Source: Frigoribacterium sp. PhB24
Lineage (GTDB): Bacteria > Actinomycetota > Actinomycetes > Actinomycetales > Microbacteriaceae
Assembly: GCF_003755185.1 (NCBI RefSeq)
Contig: NZ_RKIC01000015.1
Span: 34,957 to 98,956 of the forward strand
DNA length: 64,000 bases
Reading direction: 5' to 3'
Below are positions 12,559 through 21,745 of the stretch, one piece after another. Each line of letters opens with the position of its first letter. Position 1 is the stretch's first letter. The notes under the pieces were generated by a model. That model saw nothing but the letters and a program-made list of their open reading frames with translations, was not told the origin of the DNA and made no database searches. The translations under genes and the position numbers were made by a program.

Positions 12559-12807
12559 GATCGCGCCGCCGGGGGCGGTCCGTCCGGGGTCGGCCTCGTT
12601 CGCCTCGGACCTTCCGGAACGGCCGAAGTGGGTCCCGCTGACAACGCCCTGGTGAATCCGGATGACGCCGGCGCGGTCACTGGACTCACCCGGTCACCGT
12701 CGTCGTAACGGGAAGATCCCGTCGTACCTGGTGCTCGGCGCGATCGCCGCCGAACACGACCGAGTCCGGCTCCGCTCACGGCTGAGAGCACGTCGACCGC
12801 CGCGCAA
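12559..12807. other. Convergent intergenic region with a small hairpin
   Basis: No believable gene in these 249 bp. ACGGGA-AGA-TCCCGT (12708-12722) may end transcription from either side. This is where normal high-GC coding gives way to the lower-GC block at 12.8 kb, so it is the likely left edge of the acquired island. Confidence 0.5.
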
Positions 12808-14250
12808 CTACCGGGACTGAGCCGCCGTGTCGGGTTCGCGCCCGTGACTACCCCCACGGAGGTCGTGGACGAGTTGCTTGGCTGCACGGTAGCCGCTCAT
12901 CCCGTGGACTCCGGGTCCGGGGGCTGCAGCTTGGGAGCAGATGTAGACGTTCGGGGCGATGCGCCAGGGGGTACGAGACAGTCGCGGGCGGCCGATGATC
13001 TGGCTGATGTTCGTCGCGCCGGCATTGATGTCGCCGCCGACCAGATTCGGGTTCCAGGTCTCCATCCGGTCGGCCGGGGTGCTGGCAGTGGCGATGATCG
13101 TGTCGCGGAGACCCGGAGCGAACCGTTCGATCTGTGCGGTGATGTTCTCCGCTTGGTCTTGCCGAGATCCGTTCGGCACGTGGGCGTACGCCCACAACGT
13201 GTGCCCTGCCGGTGCTCGCGTGGTGTCGAACAGGGAGGGCTGGGACACCATCACGTACGGGGACGCGGCATGGCGTCCGTTCGCGACGGCGTGCTCGCCG
13301 GCGCGGATCTCGTCGGCGCAGCCTCCCAGGTGCACTGTCCCGGCGTGACGGATGTCATCATGCTGCCAGGGGACCGCCTCGGTGAGCGCGAAGTCCACTT
13401 TCGCGACGCCGGGCCCGAACCGGAACCGACGGAGGCTGCTCCTCGTCCGAGAGGGCACCTCGTCGCCGGCGATGCGCAGCGCGGCGGGGACGCTGGTGTC
13501 CAGGAGCACTGCGGCGACGCCACCCAACTCTGCGAGGGACTGGATCTCCTGCGAGCAGACGATGCGTCCACCGTGTGCGGTGAGATCCTCGACGAGGGCG
13601 TCGACGATCGCTTGACTACCGCCGATCGGGATCGGCCATCCCCGACCATGGGCGTACGCTCCGAGTGCAACGGCCACGGCACTGGCAGATGGGCTCGGAA
13701 GCGGCTGGATGGCGTGTGCGGCGAGACCCGCGAGCATTGCTTCGGCGGGATCGCTCCGGGACCGGAACCGGCGGAGCGCGATCTTCCCCACTGCCGCCGC
13801 GATCGCTACCGCTGCCCGAAGATGCTCACGACCGCCCAACGTCGTGTGGGTGGTGATGTCCGCCACGTGGTCCGCGACCGGCGCGAGCTGGGAGAAGATC
13901 CGCTCGTATGCGGAAGAGTCGGCACCCAGTCCTTCGAGTGTGCGGTCCAGTTCGTTGTAGCCGATCCCGGCACGGCCGCCGTCCAAGGGATGCGCATACG
14001 CGGCGATCGGGGAAGCGAATCGAACACGATCCGCGAGTCCGAACGCGCGGAAGAACGGCGAATGCAATGCGAGCGGGTGCACCGCGGCACCGAGATCATG
14101 CACGAACCCCGGCAGTGTCAGCTCGTCGGAGCGGCACGCACCGCCGGGGCGCGCCGCACGTTCGTACACGACGACCTCCAAGCCGGCCCGGGCTAGCGTC
14201 ACGGCAGCCGCCAACCCGTTCGGCCCAGAACCCACCACTGCTACGTCCAC
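12808..14250 (-). CDS. FAD-dependent oxidoreductase, phytoene-desaturase / PYROXD2-like
   Basis: 480-residue flavoprotein. The N-terminal dinucleotide-binding motif VVGSGPNGLAAA starts at residue 5 and is followed by the acidic end VVYERAARPGG. The C-terminal FAD-closing segment PGPGVHGMSGYRAA is typical of the carotenoid-desaturase-like PYROXD2 group. Members of this group desaturate or oxidise isoprenoid or quinone-like substrates, or have unknown substrates. There are no carotenoid genes nearby. It is the last gene of a five-gene unit, 85 bp behind the sortase. The start is GTG at 14250 with a poor Shine-Dalgarno. Codon use is less GC-biased than in the flanking housekeeping genes. Confidence 0.85.
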   Translation of the reverse strand: MDVAVVGSGPNGLAAAVTLARAGLEVVVYERAARPGGACRSDELTLPGFVHDLGAAVHPLALHSPFFRAFGLADRVRFASPIAAYAHPLDGGRAGIGYNELDRTLEGLGADSSAYERIFSQLAPVADHVADITTHTTLGGREHLRAAVAIAAAVGKIALRRFRSRSDPAEAMLAGLAAHAIQPLPSPSASAVAVALGAYAHGRGWPIPIGGSQAIVDALVEDLTAHGGRIVCSQEIQSLAELGGVAAVLLDTSVPAALRIAGDEVPSRTRSSLRRFRFGPGVAKVDFALTEAVPWQHDDIRHAGTVHLGGCADEIRAGEHAVANGRHAASPYVMVSQPSLFDTTRAPAGHTLWAYAHVPNGSRQDQAENITAQIERFAPGLRDTIIATASTPADRMETWNPNLVGGDINAGATNISQIIGRPRLSRTPWRIAPNVYICSQAAAPGPGVHGMSGYRAAKQLVHDLRGGSHGREPDTAAQSR

Positions 14251-14335
14251 GAGATCGCTATCCCGTTCTTGTCGCTGACTCTCCAGTCACGTACAGCACG
14301 CAGACCACCTACGAGCCTGGTATCGATCGATGGCG

Positions 14336-14983
14336 TCACGGTTGCAGTTGCGCCTCGATGACGATGTTCTGCAGGGATTCGCCCCCCTCGGGGCGTTGCA
14401 GGCAGGTGATCAGCACCAGCTTCCCAGGCGTCTCGTCCCAGACCGACTCCGCCTGCCCGAGCCGAGTCTTTTCGATCGCGTCGGTAGCCTTCACCCGGTA
14501 CTTCGCCGAGCCGACGAACACGTCGTCACCGACCTGCAATTTAGACCGGCGGTGCTCTACGTCGATGAGGTAGTTTCCGGGTCCCACCCCTCCGCCGCGG
14601 AGGGAATGCATCGCGATGAAGACGGTGCCGGCGCTGGCCTGGGCTAGCCCCACACCTCGGTTCTGCACCCAGTACGCCTTGTCGAACCCAGGCGGATTGA
14701 TCACCCGATCCGTTTCACGGAGCGCAGCGATCTCGACCCGTAACCCTGTCTTCGGGATCACGAGTTCACCCGCTCCTGCGGGAACGGGGACGACGTCGGA
14801 GAAGCCCGTTGCCTCGGGGACGACGATGTTGCCGGCCAGGTCGTGTGCTCGGCCAGGCTGGTCAGCTCCGAGTCCGGGATGCGTGATGCCGGCGATGACG
14901 AATGCGAACGTCGCCGAAACGCCGGCGGCCGCGGTGAGGAGTTCCCACCGCCGCCGCCCCCGCCTGTGAGCGGTCTCAGTCAT
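14336..14983 (-). CDS. Sortase (class E/F-like cysteine transpeptidase)
   Basis: 215 residues. An N-terminal signal anchor (LLTAAAGVSATFAFVIAG) is followed by a sortase beta-barrel. The catalytic His126 is in FIAMHSLRGGGVGP and Cys194 in VLITCLQRP. The usual strand after the cysteine reads LQNIVIEA, so the catalytic arginine is not in its normal place and may be supplied by Arg197 or another residue. Its ATG lies inside the last codons of the surface-protein gene (8-bp overlap), which strongly suggests a dedicated enzyme for that substrate. It would join the protein to peptidoglycan or to another protein on the outer face of the membrane. Confidence 0.87.
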   Translation of the reverse strand: MTETAHRRGRRRWELLTAAAGVSATFAFVIAGITHPGLGADQPGRAHDLAGNIVVPEATGFSDVVPVPAGAGELVIPKTGLRVEIAALRETDRVINPPGFDKAYWVQNRGVGLAQASAGTVFIAMHSLRGGGVGPGNYLIDVEHRRSKLQVGDDVFVGSAKYRVKATDAIEKTRLGQAESVWDETPGKLVLITCLQRPEGGESLQNIVIEAQLQP

Positions 14984-17549
14984 CCTGCGAGGAGACATCA
15001 CGGCGCCGGCGGAACATCGCGCCGATCCCCGCCGCGGCGGCCAGCGCCGCAGCACCGGCGCCAACCCATGGCCACACGATCCGTTCGTTCTGGATCGTCC
15101 CGCCGGTAGCGACCCGCGGACCGCCGTTGCTGCCACCCTCGAGAGCGTTCTGACCGCTGGCCGCGGCAGCAGATTCCGCTGCGGAGGCGGCTTTGCCGCT
15201 GTTCGTGTCGGCGCCGGCTGATGCTGATGCTGATGCGTTCGCGTTGGTGTTCATGTCGACCGAGGCGTCCTTGGACGCGTCCGCGATCGCGGCGGCTTTC
15301 GCGGCCGAGGAGGCGTCTGCGTTCGTCGCGGCGGTTGCTGCGGCTTGGGTGTTGTCGGACGCGTCGGCCATCGCGGCGGTTTGCGCTGCGGCCTGGGCGG
15401 AGCCCTTGGCCTCAGCGGAGGCGTCTTTGGACGCGTCTGCTTTCGCGGCTTTCTGCGCGGCGGCGTTGGCTTTGCTGTCGGCCGCGGCCGAGGCCCGGGT
15501 GTCGTCATCACCATCGGTCATCGCGGCGGCGACAGCTGCCGGGTTCGCGTTCGCGTCGGCGCCGGCTGATGCTGACGCGTTCGCGTTGGTGTTCATGTCG
15601 ACCGAGGCGTCCTTGGACGCGTCCGCGATCGCGGCGGCTTTCGCGGCCGAGGAGGCGTCTGCGTTCGTCGCGGCGGTTGCTGCGGCTTGGGTGTTGTCGG
15701 ACGCGTCGGCCATCGCGGCGGTTTGCGCTGCGGCCTGGGCGGAGCCCTTGGCCTCAGCGGAGGCGTCTTTGGACGCGTCTGCTTTCGCGGCTTTCTGCGC
15801 GGCGGCGTTGGCTTTGCTGTCGGCCGCGGCCGAGGCCCGGGTGTCGTCATCACCATCGGTCATCGCGGCGGCGACAGCTGCCGGGTTCGCGTTCGCGTCG
15901 GCGCCGGCTGATGCTGATGCGTTCGCGTTGGTGTTCATGTCGACCGAGGCGTCCTTGGACGCGTCCGCGATCGCGGCGGCTTTCGCGGCCGAGGAGGCGT
16001 CTGCGGTCGTCGCGGCGGTTGCTGCGGCTTGGGTGTTGTCGGACGCGTCGGCCATCGCGGCGGTTTGCGCTGCGGCCTGGGCGGAGCCCTTGGCCTCAGC
16101 GGAGGCGTCTTTGGACGCGTCTGCTTTTGCGGCTTTCTGCGCGGCGGCGTTGGCTTTGCTGTCGGCCGCGGCCGAGGCCCGGGTGTCGTCATCACCATCG
16201 GTCATCGCGGCGGCGACAGCTGCCGGGTTCGCGTTCGCGTCGGCGCCGGCTGATGCTGATGCGTTCGCGTTGGTGTTCTCGTCGGCAGCTGGCACGATGC
16301 GAGTGCTCACGCTCGAGGTGTTGTTCGACAGATTCGGGTCGGTTTCATTGCCGCTGACCGTCGCGAAGTTCTCCACCTCGGACGGACTGTCTGCGGCGGT
16401 ATCGACAGTGAAACTGAATTGTTGGCTTGCACCAGGTTTCAGCGCCCCGGTTGAACAGGCGAGGTGTCGTCCGGTCAGCTGGCACGCCTGGTCGTGAATG
16501 GTGACGCTCCCCAGGCCCGCCGGGATGTCGTCTGTAACGACGGCACCACTGGACGTTACCCCGGTCGACGCATTCGTCACCGCAAGCGTGTAGGTGATTG
16601 GCTCACCGGCAAAGACCCGCTTGACCGCCGTTATCTCGACGGCGAGGTCGATCGCTGGGTTTGTCGCGGCGCCGACGTACATACCATCGGCATCTTTGGA
16701 TGTGATCGGCGCAGCTTGCCGTGCGACCAGCTTTAATGTTTGACCTTTTTGAAGGCCGTTATCAGCACGATATTGGAACAGGGTAGACCTGTTGCCGAAC
16801 ACAAAGTCTCCGTTGGGGTATGCCCAGGCGAGCACGACGTAACCGGAACTACTACTCGGATTCCCCTCGACTGGACCTGTATCCACATGACCCGTTGCGG
16901 TATTCAGACGGACCCAGTTGGAATCCAGGTCGACCCCCCACAAGTAACCGTCCTTCTCGGCCCAATCGGAAACTCCTGCGATGGACGCATCCGGAACGAT
17001 GGTCCTGGCATGCGTCGGGATGCCCTTCGAAAAGTCGAGCGCGTACACGTTCGGATCGGAGTGCGAGGATGCAAACATCGTGTCCGAGAACGGCCCGGAT
17101 CCGAACGTTGCTGCCGTCAGCCGACGGTCGGGAGTTCCTGGAATGTGACCGAGTTCGGTGACGCGACCATGAGCATCTACTCGGAGCAGGCCGTACCCAT
17201 GGTCCTCCTGTGCGAATGCATATGCCAGTCGATCCTTTTCGCGATACGACAATGCATTGTAGTAGTCCCAGGGAACTCCGACTTCACGGTAATCGATGCC
17301 ACCCTGCTTAGTTCTCACCGCCTCGAACAGCTGCATATTCTGTCGACCGTCCGCATTGGTGCCGGTGGAGAGCGAGACATATGCATTCGGGTGGGATAGG
17401 TCGAACGTGACCGGCTCGGTGCTGGCGGCGGTGGCGGGCAGCGCGGGGAGGCCGGCGCCGATGCTCGCGAGGAGGAGGACTCCGGTTGCTCCGAGCAGTG
17501 CTCGCGAGCGGCGGGCGAGCCCTGGGCGGCACGATTGCAAGATGATCAT
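14976..17549 (-). CDS. Large secreted repeat protein with a sortase-type C-terminus
   Basis: 857 residues. The signal peptide has a twin-Arg-rich start, a hydrophobic core near 20-38, and cleavage after ATAAS or nearby. Residues of about 44-300 resemble DUF6923-type beta-propeller domains (AYALDFSKG, VDLDSNWVRLNTATG). A DUF11-like beta-sandwich with DLAVEITAVKR...GEPITYTLAV follows at about 305-425. Next come three nearly identical 114-residue Ala/Asp/Lys-rich repeats, then GGPRVATGGTI, one membrane helix and an RRRRDVSSQDD tail. That tail is a sorting-signal layout, but VATGG replaces LPxTG or LAxTG. AAGGA lies 9 nt before the ATG. The gene precedes and overlaps a sortase. Confidence 0.85.
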   Translation of the reverse strand: MIILQSCRPGLARRSRALLGATGVLLLASIGAGLPALPATAASTEPVTFDLSHPNAYVSLSTGTNADGRQNMQLFEAVRTKQGGIDYREVGVPWDYYNALSYREKDRLAYAFAQEDHGYGLLRVDAHGRVTELGHIPGTPDRRLTAATFGSGPFSDTMFASSHSDPNVYALDFSKGIPTHARTIVPDASIAGVSDWAEKDGYLWGVDLDSNWVRLNTATGHVDTGPVEGNPSSSSGYVVLAWAYPNGDFVFGNRSTLFQYRADNGLQKGQTLKLVARQAAPITSKDADGMYVGAATNPAIDLAVEITAVKRVFAGEPITYTLAVTNASTGVTSSGAVVTDDIPAGLGSVTIHDQACQLTGRHLACSTGALKPGASQQFSFTVDTAADSPSEVENFATVSGNETDPNLSNNTSSVSTRIVPAADENTNANASASAGADANANPAAVAAAMTDGDDDTRASAAADSKANAAAQKAAKADASKDASAEAKGSAQAAAQTAAMADASDNTQAAATAATTADASSAAKAAAIADASKDASVDMNTNANASASAGADANANPAAVAAAMTDGDDDTRASAAADSKANAAAQKAAKADASKDASAEAKGSAQAAAQTAAMADASDNTQAAATAATNADASSAAKAAAIADASKDASVDMNTNANASASAGADANANPAAVAAAMTDGDDDTRASAAADSKANAAAQKAAKADASKDASAEAKGSAQAAAQTAAMADASDNTQAAATAATNADASSAAKAAAIADASKDASVDMNTNANASASASAGADTNSGKAASAAESAAAASGQNALEGGSNGGPRVATGGTIQNERIVWPWVGAGAAALAAAAGIGAMFRRRRDVSSQDD
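15235..16260 (-). repeat. Three 342-bp near-perfect tandem repeats inside the surface-protein gene
   Basis: Copies start at 15235, 15577 and 15919, each 342 bp (114 codons). They differ at only a few bases, for example a Thr/Asn change and one silent C/T change in the copy at 15919. A fourth copy begins at 16261 and stops matching after about 16 bp. In-frame length means gain or loss of units would leave the protein intact. Confidence 0.95.
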
Positions 17550-17580
17550 TGGGTTTTCCTTGACATTGATTTTGGGGGAG

Positions 17581-18744
17581 TTACTGCTGCGGAGACAGGG
17601 ATGGTGTCGTGGTGGTCGTCGTCGTGTTGTGTCGCAGTTTTTTGGCGAGTGACACGCTGGGCCCCTTCGCGTAGTGCGCCATGGTGCGGTATGTGGCGTC
17701 TCGGACGAAGAGGGAGTCCAGGGCGAGCATCCAGAGCGAGAACCAGGGCAGGCCCATGAGGAGGCCGATGGCGGAGTGGAAGCCGAGGATGACGAGGAGG
17801 GCGAACACGCGAGTGGGGCGACGCATGAGCAGAAGTGGGAATCCGACCTGGACGAGAACGGTCATGATGGTGCCCAACGCCACCAAGGGTGCCCATACGG
17901 TGATGAGGTGGCTGAGTTCTGGCCAGGTGCCGAACTGTGCGGTCTGGAGGGGGTTGTAGATGGCGTAGCCCCGATACCAGGGGGCGCCCTGCGCTTTGTA
18001 CAACCCGCCGGCCGCATACAGCATGCAGAGCTGTGCGCCGAGCACGATGACGGCCAGATTGTGTAGCAGCGTCGTGAACCGCGCCGGTAGGGCCGGTTGG
18101 AAGTTCCACCAACGGCGCAGGATGTTTCCGGTGTCCGCGCTGCGGGCACGGCGTCGTGCGTCGAGTGACCAGACGTGTGCGGGCGATGTGAAGAAGAGGT
18201 AGATCATCGCCATTCGAGAGAGGTTGTCGCTCTGGTCCTGTACGTCGACGTTGATCGAGAGCAATCCGACCCAGAACACGAACGCGATGGTCATGGCGAT
18301 ACGAGTGCGCCACCCGATCGCGATCGCGATTCCGCTTGCGATCAAGATGCAGAACACTGCGCCGAGGGCGATGGAGTTGTCGGCGGTGGCGTTCACGAGC
18401 GAGAACGGCCAGATGCCGGCGAAGTCACTGTCTGAGAACTGGAGCTGACCGCTCCACGCGGCCCCGGCGCCGAACGTGTAGTTGCGCGTGGCGAAGTTCG
18501 TGAGGCAGAAACCGATGATGGCGACCCCGATCAGCATTCGAGCCATGGCAAGGCCGTACTGGGCGTGCTTCCGGTCGGTCAGCCAGGCTTCTGCGACGGA
18601 GAGGGGGCCGGTGATGCGCCGACGGATCAGGGCACGCAGCCGTGGAGTGCCGCCGGTCTCTCGGCCGGGATCGTCGATCGTCGGCGTGTTCACCGGGTCG
18701 GTGTGAGCGCTGGGCGCATCGTGCGTGAGGGGTGTCGCGGTCAT
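17581..18744 (-). CDS. HTTM-domain multi-pass membrane protein (vitamin K-dependent gamma-carboxylase relative)
   Basis: 387 residues with many hydrophobic helices and an N-terminal soluble stretch of about 55 residues. The layout fits the HTTM family, which includes animal gamma-glutamyl carboxylase. The helix ending AAGGLYKAQGAPWYRGYAI (near residue 250) lines up with the carboxylase segment that holds its active lysine, allowing a one-residue gap. The carboxylase C-terminal domain is absent, as in most bacterial HTTM proteins, whose chemistry is unknown. The start ATG overlaps the stop of the upstream DUF5819 gene (ATGA). The surface-protein gene follows after 31 nt. Confidence 0.8.
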   Translation of the reverse strand: MTATPLTHDAPSAHTDPVNTPTIDDPGRETGGTPRLRALIRRRITGPLSVAEAWLTDRKHAQYGLAMARMLIGVAIIGFCLTNFATRNYTFGAGAAWSGQLQFSDSDFAGIWPFSLVNATADNSIALGAVFCILIASGIAIAIGWRTRIAMTIAFVFWVGLLSINVDVQDQSDNLSRMAMIYLFFTSPAHVWSLDARRRARSADTGNILRRWWNFQPALPARFTTLLHNLAVIVLGAQLCMLYAAGGLYKAQGAPWYRGYAIYNPLQTAQFGTWPELSHLITVWAPLVALGTIMTVLVQVGFPLLLMRRPTRVFALLVILGFHSAIGLLMGLPWFSLWMLALDSLFVRDATYRTMAHYAKGPSVSLAKKLRHNTTTTTTTPSLSPQQ

Positions 18745-19559
18745 CGGGAGCGGCTTTCGAGGGCGTGGTGGACACGGTTGAAGGTCTGCGCGAATTCGTC
18801 CTGGTCTTGTCTCGGTAGCGTGATCAGGCCACGCCACCCGGTTGCGGCGATCTGCGGCGCGGGACGTTCTGCATCGGCGTCGTTGCGGTCCTCGTACGGG
18901 ATGACGTTCTGACGCGATGCGCGGTACTGCACCCGGATCACGTCGGGGCCCCAGGTGGCTTCCGCGATCTGGGTGGCATACGCGTCGGCATAGCGCTCCC
19001 GCACGATGTATTCGTTCACCTCGGCGGTGGAGTCGGCCTGCTGCTGCAGCATCGCTGTCCGCATCCGCCCCAGCCATGCGTCGCCGTCGAAGTAGTTCAG
19101 TCGGGCGGTGTCCTGCTGTTCGGCACTCAGTCCGTCCCAGGCGCCCTTCAATGCACTTGCCGCATGCACACCGAGGCCGGCGGCGCGAGGCGGGAAGAGG
19201 TGATGCTGCGCCATCGACTGCTCGACATCCGTGGCCGATACCCACTTCGTCACGGCGGCATCTTTCCCGTCTGTCGAGGACACCAAAGCCCGGACTTCGA
19301 ACCGGTAGTCGCCGTTGATCGGTTCTGGTGCGAAGACGCTCCAGCTCTGTCCGAACCACGGGATCATGTACGACTCGAGGGCGTTTCCGGGGACCACCTG
19401 TCGCATTGCAGTCGGTGGGGAGATCCACAGGAACGACGCGAACACGTGCCATGCCGTGAGGAGGCACAGCACGACGGCCACGGCCCGGAAGGCCGTCAGG
19501 CGCCATCGCGGCAGCTGGCTTGTCGGAGTGCTTCGAGGAGCACGCGAACGTGAAAGCAC
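18741..19559 (-). CDS. DUF5819-type membrane-anchored protein, partner of HTTM
   Basis: 272 residues from the preferred GTG at 19559, which has AGGAG 7 nt upstream; the frame is open back to a GTG at 19625 with no spaced Shine-Dalgarno. One N-terminal transmembrane helix (AVAVVLCLLTAWHVFASFL), then an extracytoplasmic domain with WFGQSWSVFAPEP, matching the WSVFAPxP signature I know from DUF5819 proteins. That family has no assigned function but is often encoded next to HTTM proteins, as here. First gene of the five-gene block, behind a promoter at about 19.65 kb. Confidence 0.78.
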   Translation of the reverse strand: MLSRSRAPRSTPTSQLPRWRLTAFRAVAVVLCLLTAWHVFASFLWISPPTAMRQVVPGNALESYMIPWFGQSWSVFAPEPINGDYRFEVRALVSSTDGKDAAVTKWVSATDVEQSMAQHHLFPPRAAGLGVHAASALKGAWDGLSAEQQDTARLNYFDGDAWLGRMRTAMLQQQADSTAEVNEYIVRERYADAYATQIAEATWGPDVIRVQYRASRQNVIPYEDRNDADAERPAPQIAATGWRGLITLPRQDQDEFAQTFNRVHHALESRSR

Positions 19560-20014
19560 GGAATTCTCCTGGTCGGGTTTAGGACGCGAGCGGACGTGGT
19601 GCAGGAGGTTAAACTGAAGTTTCACCTTCTACCGAGTCGATAAAAACATATCAGTTTTCCGGCGGCGTGCAAACCGAGATCGAGCGTTTTTGCAGCGTGA
19701 GCAAGCCACGAGCTGCAGACCGTGATCCGAGCGCAGGACGACATCGCTCAGGCTGCGGGTGCACCCTCGACGGACTCGGTCTCTCTCTTCGATCCCGATC
19801 ACGCGCCCATCTCCCTCGCGGGCCGTTCAGCGCCTCTCGTCGTCCGAAGCCGACACCGTGGACGGCGAAGTTCAGTTCGGCCAGAGGTCGGGCAGCATGA
19901 GTTCGTCATGCCCCCGGCTGTGACCAGGTCCGACGCGGCCCCAGTCCGTTCCGCAACCGCGCCGGCCACGGAACGAATCCCGCGGTCCGAGTGTCACGAA
20001 CCGGCTGGGGACGG
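19560..20014. other. Upstream region of the surface-protein island
   Basis: 455 bp with no convincing gene. The stretch 19610-19680 is AT-rich for this genome and holds the island promoter. From about 19700 base composition returns toward the high-GC background, so the right edge of the acquired block is likely here. Nothing else is recognised. Confidence 0.5.
19646..19673 (-). promoter_or_regulatory. Promoter of the five-gene island
   Basis: On the minus strand TTGCAC (19668-19673), a 16-bp spacer and TATGTT (19646-19651) make a sigma-70-like promoter. It would start transcription about 80 nt before the DUF5819 start codon. Confidence 0.5.
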
Positions 20015-21745
20015 CTAGACGCGGGCGGCGATCAGGGCGCGGGTGTGGGCGTGCTGCGGGGCGTCGAAGACGTCCGCCGTGCGGCCCTGCTCGACCACCC
20101 GGCCCTCGTGCATCACGGCGACGTGGTCGGACATGTGCTCGACGACGTCGAGGTCGTGCGAGATGAAGAGGTACGCGAGCCCGTCCTGTCGTTGCAGCTC
20201 GTCGAGCAGGTCGAGCACCTGGGCCTGCACCGAGACGTCGAGCGCCGAGACCGGCTCGTCGCAGATGATCACCCGGGGCCGTGGTGCCAGGGCGCGGGCG
20301 ATCGCCACCCGTTGGCGCTGCCCGCCCGACAGCGTGTCAGGGCGTCGCCCGACCGTGTCGGTGCCGAGCCCCACCCGTGACAGCAGGGCGACGACCTCGG
20401 GTTCGACGGCGCCCAGGCGTGTGCTGCGGCCCGAGGTCAGCGCGTCCGCCAGCAGGCGCCCGACCGTGAAACGCGGGTCGAACGAGCTCGTCGGGTCCTG
20501 GTAGACCGCCCCGAGGTCGCCCCGTCGGGAGCGACGATCGTGCTCGCGTGCCGGGGACCAGGGTGCCCCGAGCAGCTCGACCGTGCCGGCATCGGGCTCG
20601 TCGAGACCGAGCAGCAGGCGTGCCGTCGTGGTCTTTCCCGAACCCGACGCGCCGACGAGGCCCAGCGTCTCTCCGGCTCGCAGGCTGAGGGAGACGTCGT
20701 CGACGGCGACCCGGTCGGGGCCGCGGCGACCCGTGAAGACCCGTCGCAGGCCGTTCGCGACGAGGACGGGGCCGGCCGGGGGAGCATCGGACGTCACCTG
20801 GGCCGTCGAGCCGCTCGCGCCTCCTGACGGGGGTGCGTCGGACGCGACCCGCGTCGTCGAGCCGAGCGCGCCTCCTGTGGGCGGTCCGTCGGGCGTCCCG
20901 GGTGAGGAGAGCCGCCGCCCTCGCGGCGCCCCGCCGGGCAGGGCCGCGATGAGCATGCGCGTGTAGTCGGCCTGTGGCGCGTCGAGCACGGTCGCCGTGG
21001 GGCCCTGCTCGACCACGCGTCCGTCACGCATCACGACGACTCGGTCGGCCAGGCGGCGCACGACCCCGAGGTCGTGGCTGATCGCGAGGACGGCCGTGCC
21101 CCCGTCGCGCAGGGCTGCGAGCCGGTCGACGACCAGGCGCTGCACCTCGGCGTCCAGGGCGGTGGTGGGCTCGTCGGCGACGATCACACCGGGCCTCAAG
21201 GCGAGGGCGGCGGCGATGAGCGCCCGCTGTCGCAGACCACCCGACAACTCGCCCGAGCGCAGGCCGCGGCGCACCTCGGGGTCGGGCATGCCGACCTCGG
21301 TGAGCGCCTCGAGCACGCGGGCCCGGCGGGCCGTCGGCGTGAGCCGCGTGTGCAGCCTGAGGGCGTCGTCGATCTCGCGGCCGACCGGACGCAGGGGGTC
21401 GAGCGAGACCAGGGCGTCCTGCAGCACGAGACCGACGCGTGGACCGCGCACCCCACGCCATCGACGCTCGGTCAGTGTCAGCAGATCGTCGCCGCCGAGT
21501 CGCAGCGCGTCGGCCGTCACGGTGCCGCCGGTGAGCCCCAGCAGGGCCCGGGCGGTCACGCTCTTGCCCGAGCCGGACTCGCCGACCAGGGCCACGCACT
21601 CGCCCGGCCGCAGCGAGAACGAGACGTCGTCGACGGCGGTCACCCGGCCGAAGGCGACGTGCAGGCGCTCGACGACGAGGTCGTCCGAGGAGGGGCGGTG
21701 CCGGTCGTCGGGAGCGGCGCCGGTCGGCCGCGGTGTCGCCGTCAT
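20015..21745 (-). CDS. Fused double ATP-binding protein of a peptide/nickel-type ABC importer (DppD-DppF fusion)
   Basis: 576 residues with two complete ABC ATPase domains. The first has Walker A GESGSGKS (about 54-61) and signature LSGG; the second has Walker A GASGSGKT (near 370) and signature LSGGQRQRV. Walker B regions VIVADEPT and VIICDEPV are intact, so both sites should hydrolyse ATP. It powers the two permeases encoded just upstream, importing oligopeptides or related solutes captured by the lipoprotein. The linker between domains contains a 51-bp duplicated stretch. The start overlaps the permease stop (ATGA). Confidence 0.93.
   Translation of the reverse strand: MTATPRPTGAAPDDRHRPSSDDLVVERLHVAFGRVTAVDDVSFSLRPGECVALVGESGSGKSVTARALLGLTGGTVTADALRLGGDDLLTLTERRWRGVRGPRVGLVLQDALVSLDPLRPVGREIDDALRLHTRLTPTARRARVLEALTEVGMPDPEVRRGLRSGELSGGLRQRALIAAALALRPGVIVADEPTTALDAEVQRLVVDRLAALRDGGTAVLAISHDLGVVRRLADRVVVMRDGRVVEQGPTATVLDAPQADYTRMLIAALPGGAPRGRRLSSPGTPDGPPTGGALGSTTRVASDAPPSGGASGSTAQVTSDAPPAGPVLVANGLRRVFTGRRGPDRVAVDDVSLSLRAGETLGLVGASGSGKTTTARLLLGLDEPDAGTVELLGAPWSPAREHDRRSRRGDLGAVYQDPTSSFDPRFTVGRLLADALTSGRSTRLGAVEPEVVALLSRVGLGTDTVGRRPDTLSGGQRQRVAIARALAPRPRVIICDEPVSALDVSVQAQVLDLLDELQRQDGLAYLFISHDLDVVEHMSDHVAVMHEGRVVEQGRTADVFDAPQHAHTRALIAARV
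20778..20879 (-). repeat. 51-bp imperfect tandem duplication in the inter-domain linker
   Basis: Copies at 20778-20828 and 20829-20879 encode the repeated linker pattern SDAPP-GGA-GST. Each copy ends in GCGCCTCCTG, the core of the dispersed motif found throughout the window. The duplication keeps frame. Confidence 0.8.

Follow-up and report, generated by a model that had tools for sequence, protein, structure and literature searches.

What would a pair of membrane proteins do beside an exported surface protein, a sortase-like protein and an oxidoreductase? This question is raised by a locus of Frigoribacterium sp. PhB24, which lies in a 64,000-nucleotide stretch of contig NZ_RKIC01000015.1 (positions 34,957 to 98,956 of the forward strand; hereafter, the window). 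The five-gene set that an earlier note on this DNA had claimed here is indeed present: five open reading frames (ORFs) on the minus strand, at 12808-19559, which in reading order encode a DUF5819 protein, an HTTM protein, a repeat-rich exported protein, a sortase-like protein and a flavin adenine dinucleotide (FAD)-dependent oxidoreductase. On the evidence below, we consider it probable that the DUF5819 and HTTM proteins are the two subunits of a membrane enzyme that modifies proteins and is dedicated to the exported surface protein encoded beside them.

A constant membrane pair with frequent surface-protein neighbours

The DUF5819 family (PF19136) was found in 46 of 299 genomes of the family Microbacteriaceae, representing 25 of 85 genera, and in 20 of 396 genomes sampled across the phylum. 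Taxa carrying the DUF5819-HTTM pair belong to Microbacteriaceae, Brevibacteriaceae, Micrococcaceae, Ruaniaceae and Propionibacteriaceae. After 13 of 134 DUF5819 ORFs were set aside for identical domain cores, 121 non-redundant loci were left: 41 from the family sample, 68 from the named set, 11 from the phylum sample and the window itself. Neighbour counts given here are ORF-based; our home-made gene caller overlooked some genes, the FAD gene at L065 among them, and ORF counts also miss some, as at L158, where a truncated LADTG protein lying upstream escaped the rule for detecting surface neighbours.

An HTTM protein partners DUF5819 in all 121 loci, and under a stricter 300-bp rule the two lie side by side in 79 of the 80 named loci. 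Directly beside the pair, 64 of the 121 loci carry a wall-sorted or choice-of-anchor G protein (32 of 41 in the family, 28 of 68 in the named set, 3 of 11 in the phylum, plus the window); the background rate of such proteins among other called genes longer than 150 aa is 11 of 668 (1.6%). By eye, the more distant genes resemble housekeeping genes, and they vary between genera. Ten stretches were also fetched from other families. At L190-L192, in the f5 genomes (6-10 Mb), two pairs have ice-binding-like proteins next to them and a third has a collagen-repeat protein, and L195, likewise from an f5 genome, is among the pairs beside ice-binding-like, collagen-repeat or small exported-looking proteins. 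At L193:8207-14086, a single LPSTG surface protein is flanked by two DUF5819-HTTM pairs.

The conserved core is thus smaller than five genes: it consists of DUF5819 and HTTM, often with a surface protein and sometimes with the FAD gene. The earlier note had proposed a module of all five, and our count of neighbours upholds this for HTTM in every locus, for the surface protein in about half of them and for the FAD gene in 25 of 121; the sortase is a local element. As one conserved, ancient unit, the five genes had to be given up: models of the window sortase (SRT) and repeat protein (REP) matched nothing in the 80 named loci, and relatives of the sortase, present in 19 of 249 family genomes, sit mostly away from DUF5819 and adjoin it only in the two copies of PhB24's own genome.

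HTTM as a relative of the vitamin K carboxylase

The HTTM domain (PF05090) is recognised in the window protein at E=4.2e-10 and 40.1 bits, against a curated cut-off of 27.7, and in 34 of 34 HTTM members at E<=0.001. A profile of these 34 proteins, compared with the sequences of the PDB, gave eight matches up to E=10, all of them to the vitamin K-dependent gamma-glutamyl carboxylase GGCX (best E=5e-11). The AlphaFold2 (AF2) model is all-helical, with a mean predicted local distance difference test score (pLDDT) of 87.6, and all 14 of its Foldseek matches at E<=0.001 were GGCX chains (probability 1.00, E 4e-6, TMq 0.49-0.55). In the profile alignment, with numbering counted by hand, Lys250 of HTTM stands opposite K218 of GGCX, Trp256 opposite W223 and Phe335 opposite F299. 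K218 is described as the base by which vitamin K hydroquinone is deprotonated, and the lining of the quinone pocket as including W223 and F299 (PMC12589487). All 133 of the aligned HTTM rows, counted with redundant loci, have Lys250, together with Arg69, Asp173, Tyr243, Trp256 and Gly259. Judged by sequence, predicted fold and this invariant lysine, HTTM is a relative of GGCX, an enzyme that acts on exported proteins.

DUF5819 and the parallel with SdpA-SdpB

The partner protein matches PF19136 at E=3.5e-38 and consists of one N-terminal transmembrane helix and a further domain, in which a Q-x-W-x-x-F-A-P motif is invariant in an alignment of 35 members. Its AF2 model (mean pLDDT 90.8) has a long N-terminal helix and a mixed domain; it matched no PDB fold at E<=0.001 (best E 0.23), and a sequence search of the PDB found no structural relative.

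SdpA and SdpB are needed to make the toxin SDP from pro-SdpC, and the pair studied here resembles them in several respects. The HTTM profile matches eight SdpB proteins with a probability of 99.6% (E=4.6e-25), and the lysine opposite K218 of GGCX is invariant in SdpB as well (8 of 8 rows). The DUF5819 profile matches nine SdpA proteins over the transmembrane helix and the Q-x-W motif at E=5.4e-4/2.4e-4, with an hhalign probability of 30-43%; no shuffle reached its score, whether of columns (100 tried) or of blocks (60 tried). SdpA was found in 1 of 149 phylum genomes, and the SdpA and SdpB rows were therefore taken mostly from plasmid records. On two annotated plasmids the order toxin-sdpA-sdpB repeats the surface-DUF5819-HTTM layout seen at pair loci, and on two others sdpA-sdpB-toxin repeats the order in the window. 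The sdpA-sdpB-toxin locus on a Niallia plasmid (L080, NZ_CP137637.1) has a DUF393 gene overlapping sdpA.

Both arrangements are two-gene membrane pairs beside an exported precursor, and DUF5819 looks like an SdpA-type partner in a pair that parallels SdpA-SdpB. The differences are also clear. DUF5819 is larger than SdpA and is not matched by SdpA models: the Pfam SdpA family gave no match in the window protein at E<=1, and no SdpA family of NCBIfam was matched by the 35 DUF5819 members at E<=10. The SdpB model TIGR04033 scores 20.6 bits on HTTM, below its cut-off of 178.4. Lastly, the neighbour of DUF5819-HTTM is a large wall protein, whereas that of SdpA-SdpB is a toxin precursor.

Such a parallel allows another interpretation, namely, that the pair acts in export or proteolytic maturation of the SdpAB type and frees or processes part of the exported protein with no side-chain chemistry, the lysine being structural. 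The strong HTTM-SdpB homology, the DUF5819-SdpA similarity, weak as it is but above shuffles, and the matching gene orders all agree with this. However, complete wall proteins beside the pair measure 574-2,875 aa and are not toxin precursors of about 200 aa, and the lysine is invariant in SdpB too, so SdpB itself may do chemistry. We therefore regard maturation of this type as rather unlikely, and retain modification of the surface protein as the preferred reading.

The surface protein and its stalk

The exported protein of the window begins with a signal peptide, recognised by eye, followed by a DUF6923 domain (E=7e-31, residues 69-289), a DUF11 domain (E=1.9e-16, residues 301-415) and a stalk of three 114-aa repeats. 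Its C-terminus, read from the sequence, ends in RVATGG, a hydrophobic stretch and RRRR: the canonical LPXTG is lacking, and the hydrophobic stretch and basic tail of a wall-sorted protein are there.

The stalk repeats, rich in Ala, Asp, Asn and Ser, resemble the stalks of wall proteins with other heads that lie beside other pairs (alignment A6). A search with A6 through the 299 family genomes found this stalk type in 16, all of them among the 46 that are DUF5819-positive, and in 0 of the 253 DUF5819-negative ones. The matches lie on 19 contigs, on 17 of them within 4 kb of DUF5819; the other two are at contig ends, in genomes where DUF5819 is also near a contig end. When the five genomes that supplied query rows are left out, 11 of 11 stalk genomes are DUF5819-positive, for which the chance is 1e-10, a figure that ignores relatedness. 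Such a confinement points to the stalk as the probable substrate of the pair.

The commonest head of wall proteins beside the pair is choice-of-anchor G (NF033766), found in 7 of 10 scanned; the window protein differs from these in its DUF6923-DUF11 head. We rejected this head as an obligatory substrate: it occurs in 114 of 299 family genomes, 73 of which are DUF5819-negative, and the window protein does without it.

The FAD oxidoreductase and the sortase-like protein

The FAD gene matches NAD_binding_8 (E=1.2e-15) and the general Rossmann and amine-oxidase models of Pfam; no family-specific model scored over its cut-off, the best in NCBIfam being CrtO, at 67 against 1000 bits. The label PYROXD2-like, given in the earlier note, is a tentative one. 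Of the 25 loci with the FAD gene no more than 8 kb from the pair, 14 have it directly adjacent on the same strand, and at L126, L111 and L086 the coordinates give a 4-bp overlap between HTTM stop and FAD start. The 46 DUF5819-positive family genomes hold 60 FAD matches (two copies being split), 11 of which are no farther than 10 kb from DUF5819, where a Poisson estimate that ignores relatedness expects 0.41; the remaining matches are unlinked. In a tree of 63 FAD copies, the 25 linked ones require 12 label changes, of which well supported branches force at least 9. A single origin of the link is thus not supported, even if losses could explain part of the changes, and the tree fits repeated recruitment or repeated loss. 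The window copy forms a long branch of unsure placement and does not group with the FAD gene of a second such locus in the same genome (see below). A third oxidoreductase of this family is encoded in the genome away from DUF5819 (L002, G000:C3:434517-435917).

The sortase-like protein has no Pfam match, and its NCBIfam score for class F is 13.6 bits against a cut-off of 166; PF04203 hits three other places in the genome and not this gene. In the alignment of its relatives, from which 2 of 19 rows scoring below 100 bits were dropped, His126 and Cys194, the candidate catalytic His and Cys, are present in all 17 remaining rows. The catalytic Arg of sortases presumably follows the catalytic Cys. 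In this family an Arg after Cys is not conserved: R197 is present in 11 of 17 rows, and no conserved Arg was found ahead of the final strand. The Arg of an HSxR motif (R129) is present in 17 of 17 rows and may replace it.

Outside PhB24, we fetched 17 of 22 loci of sortase relatives (L224-L238 among them). In 9 of the 17, the sortase adjoins a protein with an xVxTGG signal (SVATGG, AVATGG, KVSTGG, AVNTGG, SVGTGG), similar to the RVATGG of the window; two more (L234, L237) have a similar signal beside the sortase, and none was seen by eye in 6. No DUF5819 or HTTM label was present among the three genes on either side in these 17 loci. The sortase is probably dedicated to the xVxTGG signal of the neighbouring surface protein, and since such sortase-signal pairs occur away from DUF5819, the block in the window appears to be a sortase-substrate pair placed inside a putative DUF5819-HTTM-FAD operon.

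Proposed mechanism and its weighing

GGCX, SdpB and the HTTM systems of linaridins all act on exported proteins or peptides, and we therefore read the pair as a modifier of surface proteins; given the homology of HTTM to a protein-modifying enzyme, this seems the best reading available. HTTM would be the catalytic subunit, with its GGCX-like membrane domain, and as the lysine on the quinone side is kept, it would probably generate a strong base with the help of a membrane quinone (menaquinone). The docking role that the C-terminal domain has in GGCX would fall to DUF5819, just as it may fall to SdpA in the case of SdpB. Once exported, the surface protein would be modified at the membrane, probably at its low-complexity stalk (or else at its head), after which the sortase would anchor the product through the RVATGG signal. 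The FAD enzyme may support the chemistry, for example by keeping the quinone reduced. The earlier note had ascribed modification of the exported protein or its lipid partner to HTTM/DUF5819 together with the oxidase; the kinship of HTTM with GGCX and the surface neighbours partly support that proposal.

Several observations weigh against this reading. For DUF5819, no reaction is on record anywhere, its model gave no fold match to the C-terminal domain of GGCX (no GGCX chain among the 50 listed of 140 weaker matches), and its homology with SdpA is weak, the best block shuffle scoring 30.8 against 31.9. HTTM lacks the C-terminal propeptide-binding domain of GGCX, its 387-aa chain ending soon after the HTTM domain, and would have a separate DUF5819 subunit; of the GGCX residues N159/H160, the Glu-contacting H160 aligns with the invariant Asp173. 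With Lys, Trp and Phe kept and H160 replaced by Asp, the site looks kept on the quinone side and altered on the substrate side, and the modified residue may thus differ from Glu. On the side of the substrate, this stalk type is missing from 30 of the 46 family genomes that carry DUF5819, and the surface proteins beside the pair vary in both head and stalk (a TTTPG stalk at L070, DADADA stalks elsewhere) and hence do not all share one substrate element. No wall-sorted or choice-of-anchor G neighbour was detected in 57 of the 121 loci, 28 of which are from Brevibacterium, and four f5 loci (L187, L188, L189, L196) have metabolic-looking genes and no exported neighbour beside the pair.

The loci with other neighbours also lend themselves to the view that the pair modifies a lipid, a quinone or an envelope polymer, and that surface proteins adjoin it because both serve the envelope. 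Agreeing with this are the 57 pairs with no detected surface neighbour, the four f5 loci and four Brevibacterium loci (L090, L095, L097, L105) where, as read, the pair stands alone among housekeeping-looking genes. The rate of 64 in 121 against a background of 1.6%, and a stalk type absent from all 253 DUF5819-negative genomes, argue the other way, and we consider this view improbable.

If the pair does modify the surface protein, its likely substrate would be a bacterial wall protein with an Ala/Asp/Ser stalk, in place of the Glu-rich region that GGCX modifies. Carboxylation of Asp is our boldest guess; dehydration or epimerisation could also be considered. Taken to its end, and we would call this a long shot, the locus might be a bacterial counterpart of the vitamin K cycle, in which menaquinol-driven carboxylation (or another carbon attack) on stalk Asp would yield a metal-binding or protease-resistant surface fibre, the FAD enzyme would recycle the quinone, and the dedicated sortase would fix the product to the wall.

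Structure and acquisition of the block

The features of the block are collected in Table 1. The tight spacing and overlapping starts that had been claimed hold for two joints, where the coordinates give overlaps of 4 bp (end of DUF5819, start of HTTM) and 8 bp (end of the repeat protein, start of the sortase); the other two are looser, with 31 nt from HTTM to the repeat protein and 85 nt from the sortase to the FAD gene. The latter gap leaves room for a separate start of the FAD gene. A scan for sigma-70 promoters found none, and the single promoter also proposed was thus not confirmed.

Table 1. Features of the five-gene block and its surroundings, in positions of the window
Feature	Position	Strand	Remarks
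DUF5819 protein	18741..19559	-	272 aa; GTG start after AGGAG; ORF extends back to 19625
HTTM multi-pass membrane protein, GGCX/SdpB relative	17581..18744	-	387 aa
Exported surface protein (repeat protein)	14976..17549	-	857 aa
Ala/Asp/Asn/Ser-rich stalk, three 342-bp repeats	15234..16277	-	Stalk search (G000:C7:50190-51233)
Divergent sortase-like protein	14336..14983	-	215 aa
FAD-dependent oxidoreductase, amine oxidase / phytoene desaturase-like Rossmann family	12808..14250	-	480 aa
Inserted segment with the whole block	12560..20015		Similarity breaks against four same-genus relatives
Dyad AAACTGAAGTTT in AT-richer leader ahead of DUF5819, possible (candidate) operator	19611..19622		Sequence

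Similarity to four relatives from the same genus ends at 12559-12567 and restarts at 20003-20021, and the block is an insertion of about 7.4 kb between an MFS gene before it and an ABC gene after it. These two flanking genes are adjacent in 14 of 15 other same-genus genomes, their matches being separated by 8-217 bp; in the fifteenth, G693, the MFS gene has no close match. Because of this adjacency, acquisition of the five genes as a single unit is supported, in line with the earlier note. Its statement that codon use here is less GC-biased was likewise borne out: the GC content at third codon positions (GC3) is 0.735-0.835 in the five genes, each of them below all of the 46 other called window genes of at least 100 aa (0.931 +/- 0.024, minimum 0.884). 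The 11-mer GGAGGCGCGGG, on either strand, was confirmed at 18 places in the window (4772, 10657, 22588 and others up to 63311), with no copy between 10657 and 22588 and hence none in the block; by itself this absence is a weak sign, because only about 2 copies would be expected per 7.4 kb at the density of the window. The 11-mer often sits within the longer CGAGGAGGCGCGGGT.

On another contig, the genome carries a second, diverged DUF5819-HTTM-repeat-sortase-FAD set in identical order and also of low GC3 (0.758-0.861). Identity between the two copies is 59% for DUF5819, 55% for HTTM, 48% for the sortase and 53% for the FAD gene. A selfish surface-variation island, with wall protein, sortase and pair transferred together and no biochemical link between them, would suit the insertion, its foreign codon use and flanks that differ between genomes, but is made very improbable by the constant pairing, the overlapping starts and the stalk specificity in the 11 genomes outside the query.

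Significance

HTTM proteins are widespread. The literature, among the matches listed, ties them only to GGCX and to linaridin clusters, and ties SdpB to SDP toxins. DUF5819 did not appear by name in any paper found in the literature searched, and no description of the DUF5819-HTTM arrangement was found among the matches listed.

In linaridin biosynthesis, the HTTM protein crdG is suspected of modifying a ribosomal peptide by helping to dehydrate threonine (PMC9927463). There the peptide is a small antimicrobial one, the partners are an alpha/beta hydrolase and LinL, and there is no mention of DUF5819. Some linaridins contain D-amino acids, for which grmL is a candidate epimerase gene (PMC10373908).

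Modification of proteins by members of the HTTM superfamily is known, and what is new is the partner, DUF5819, and the class of likely substrate. The pair offers a GGCX-like catalytic subunit with a constant partner and, often, the likely substrate encoded next door, which makes the question of the substrate accessible to mass spectrometry. If our reading is true, carboxylase-type protein chemistry would extend to bacterial surface fibres.

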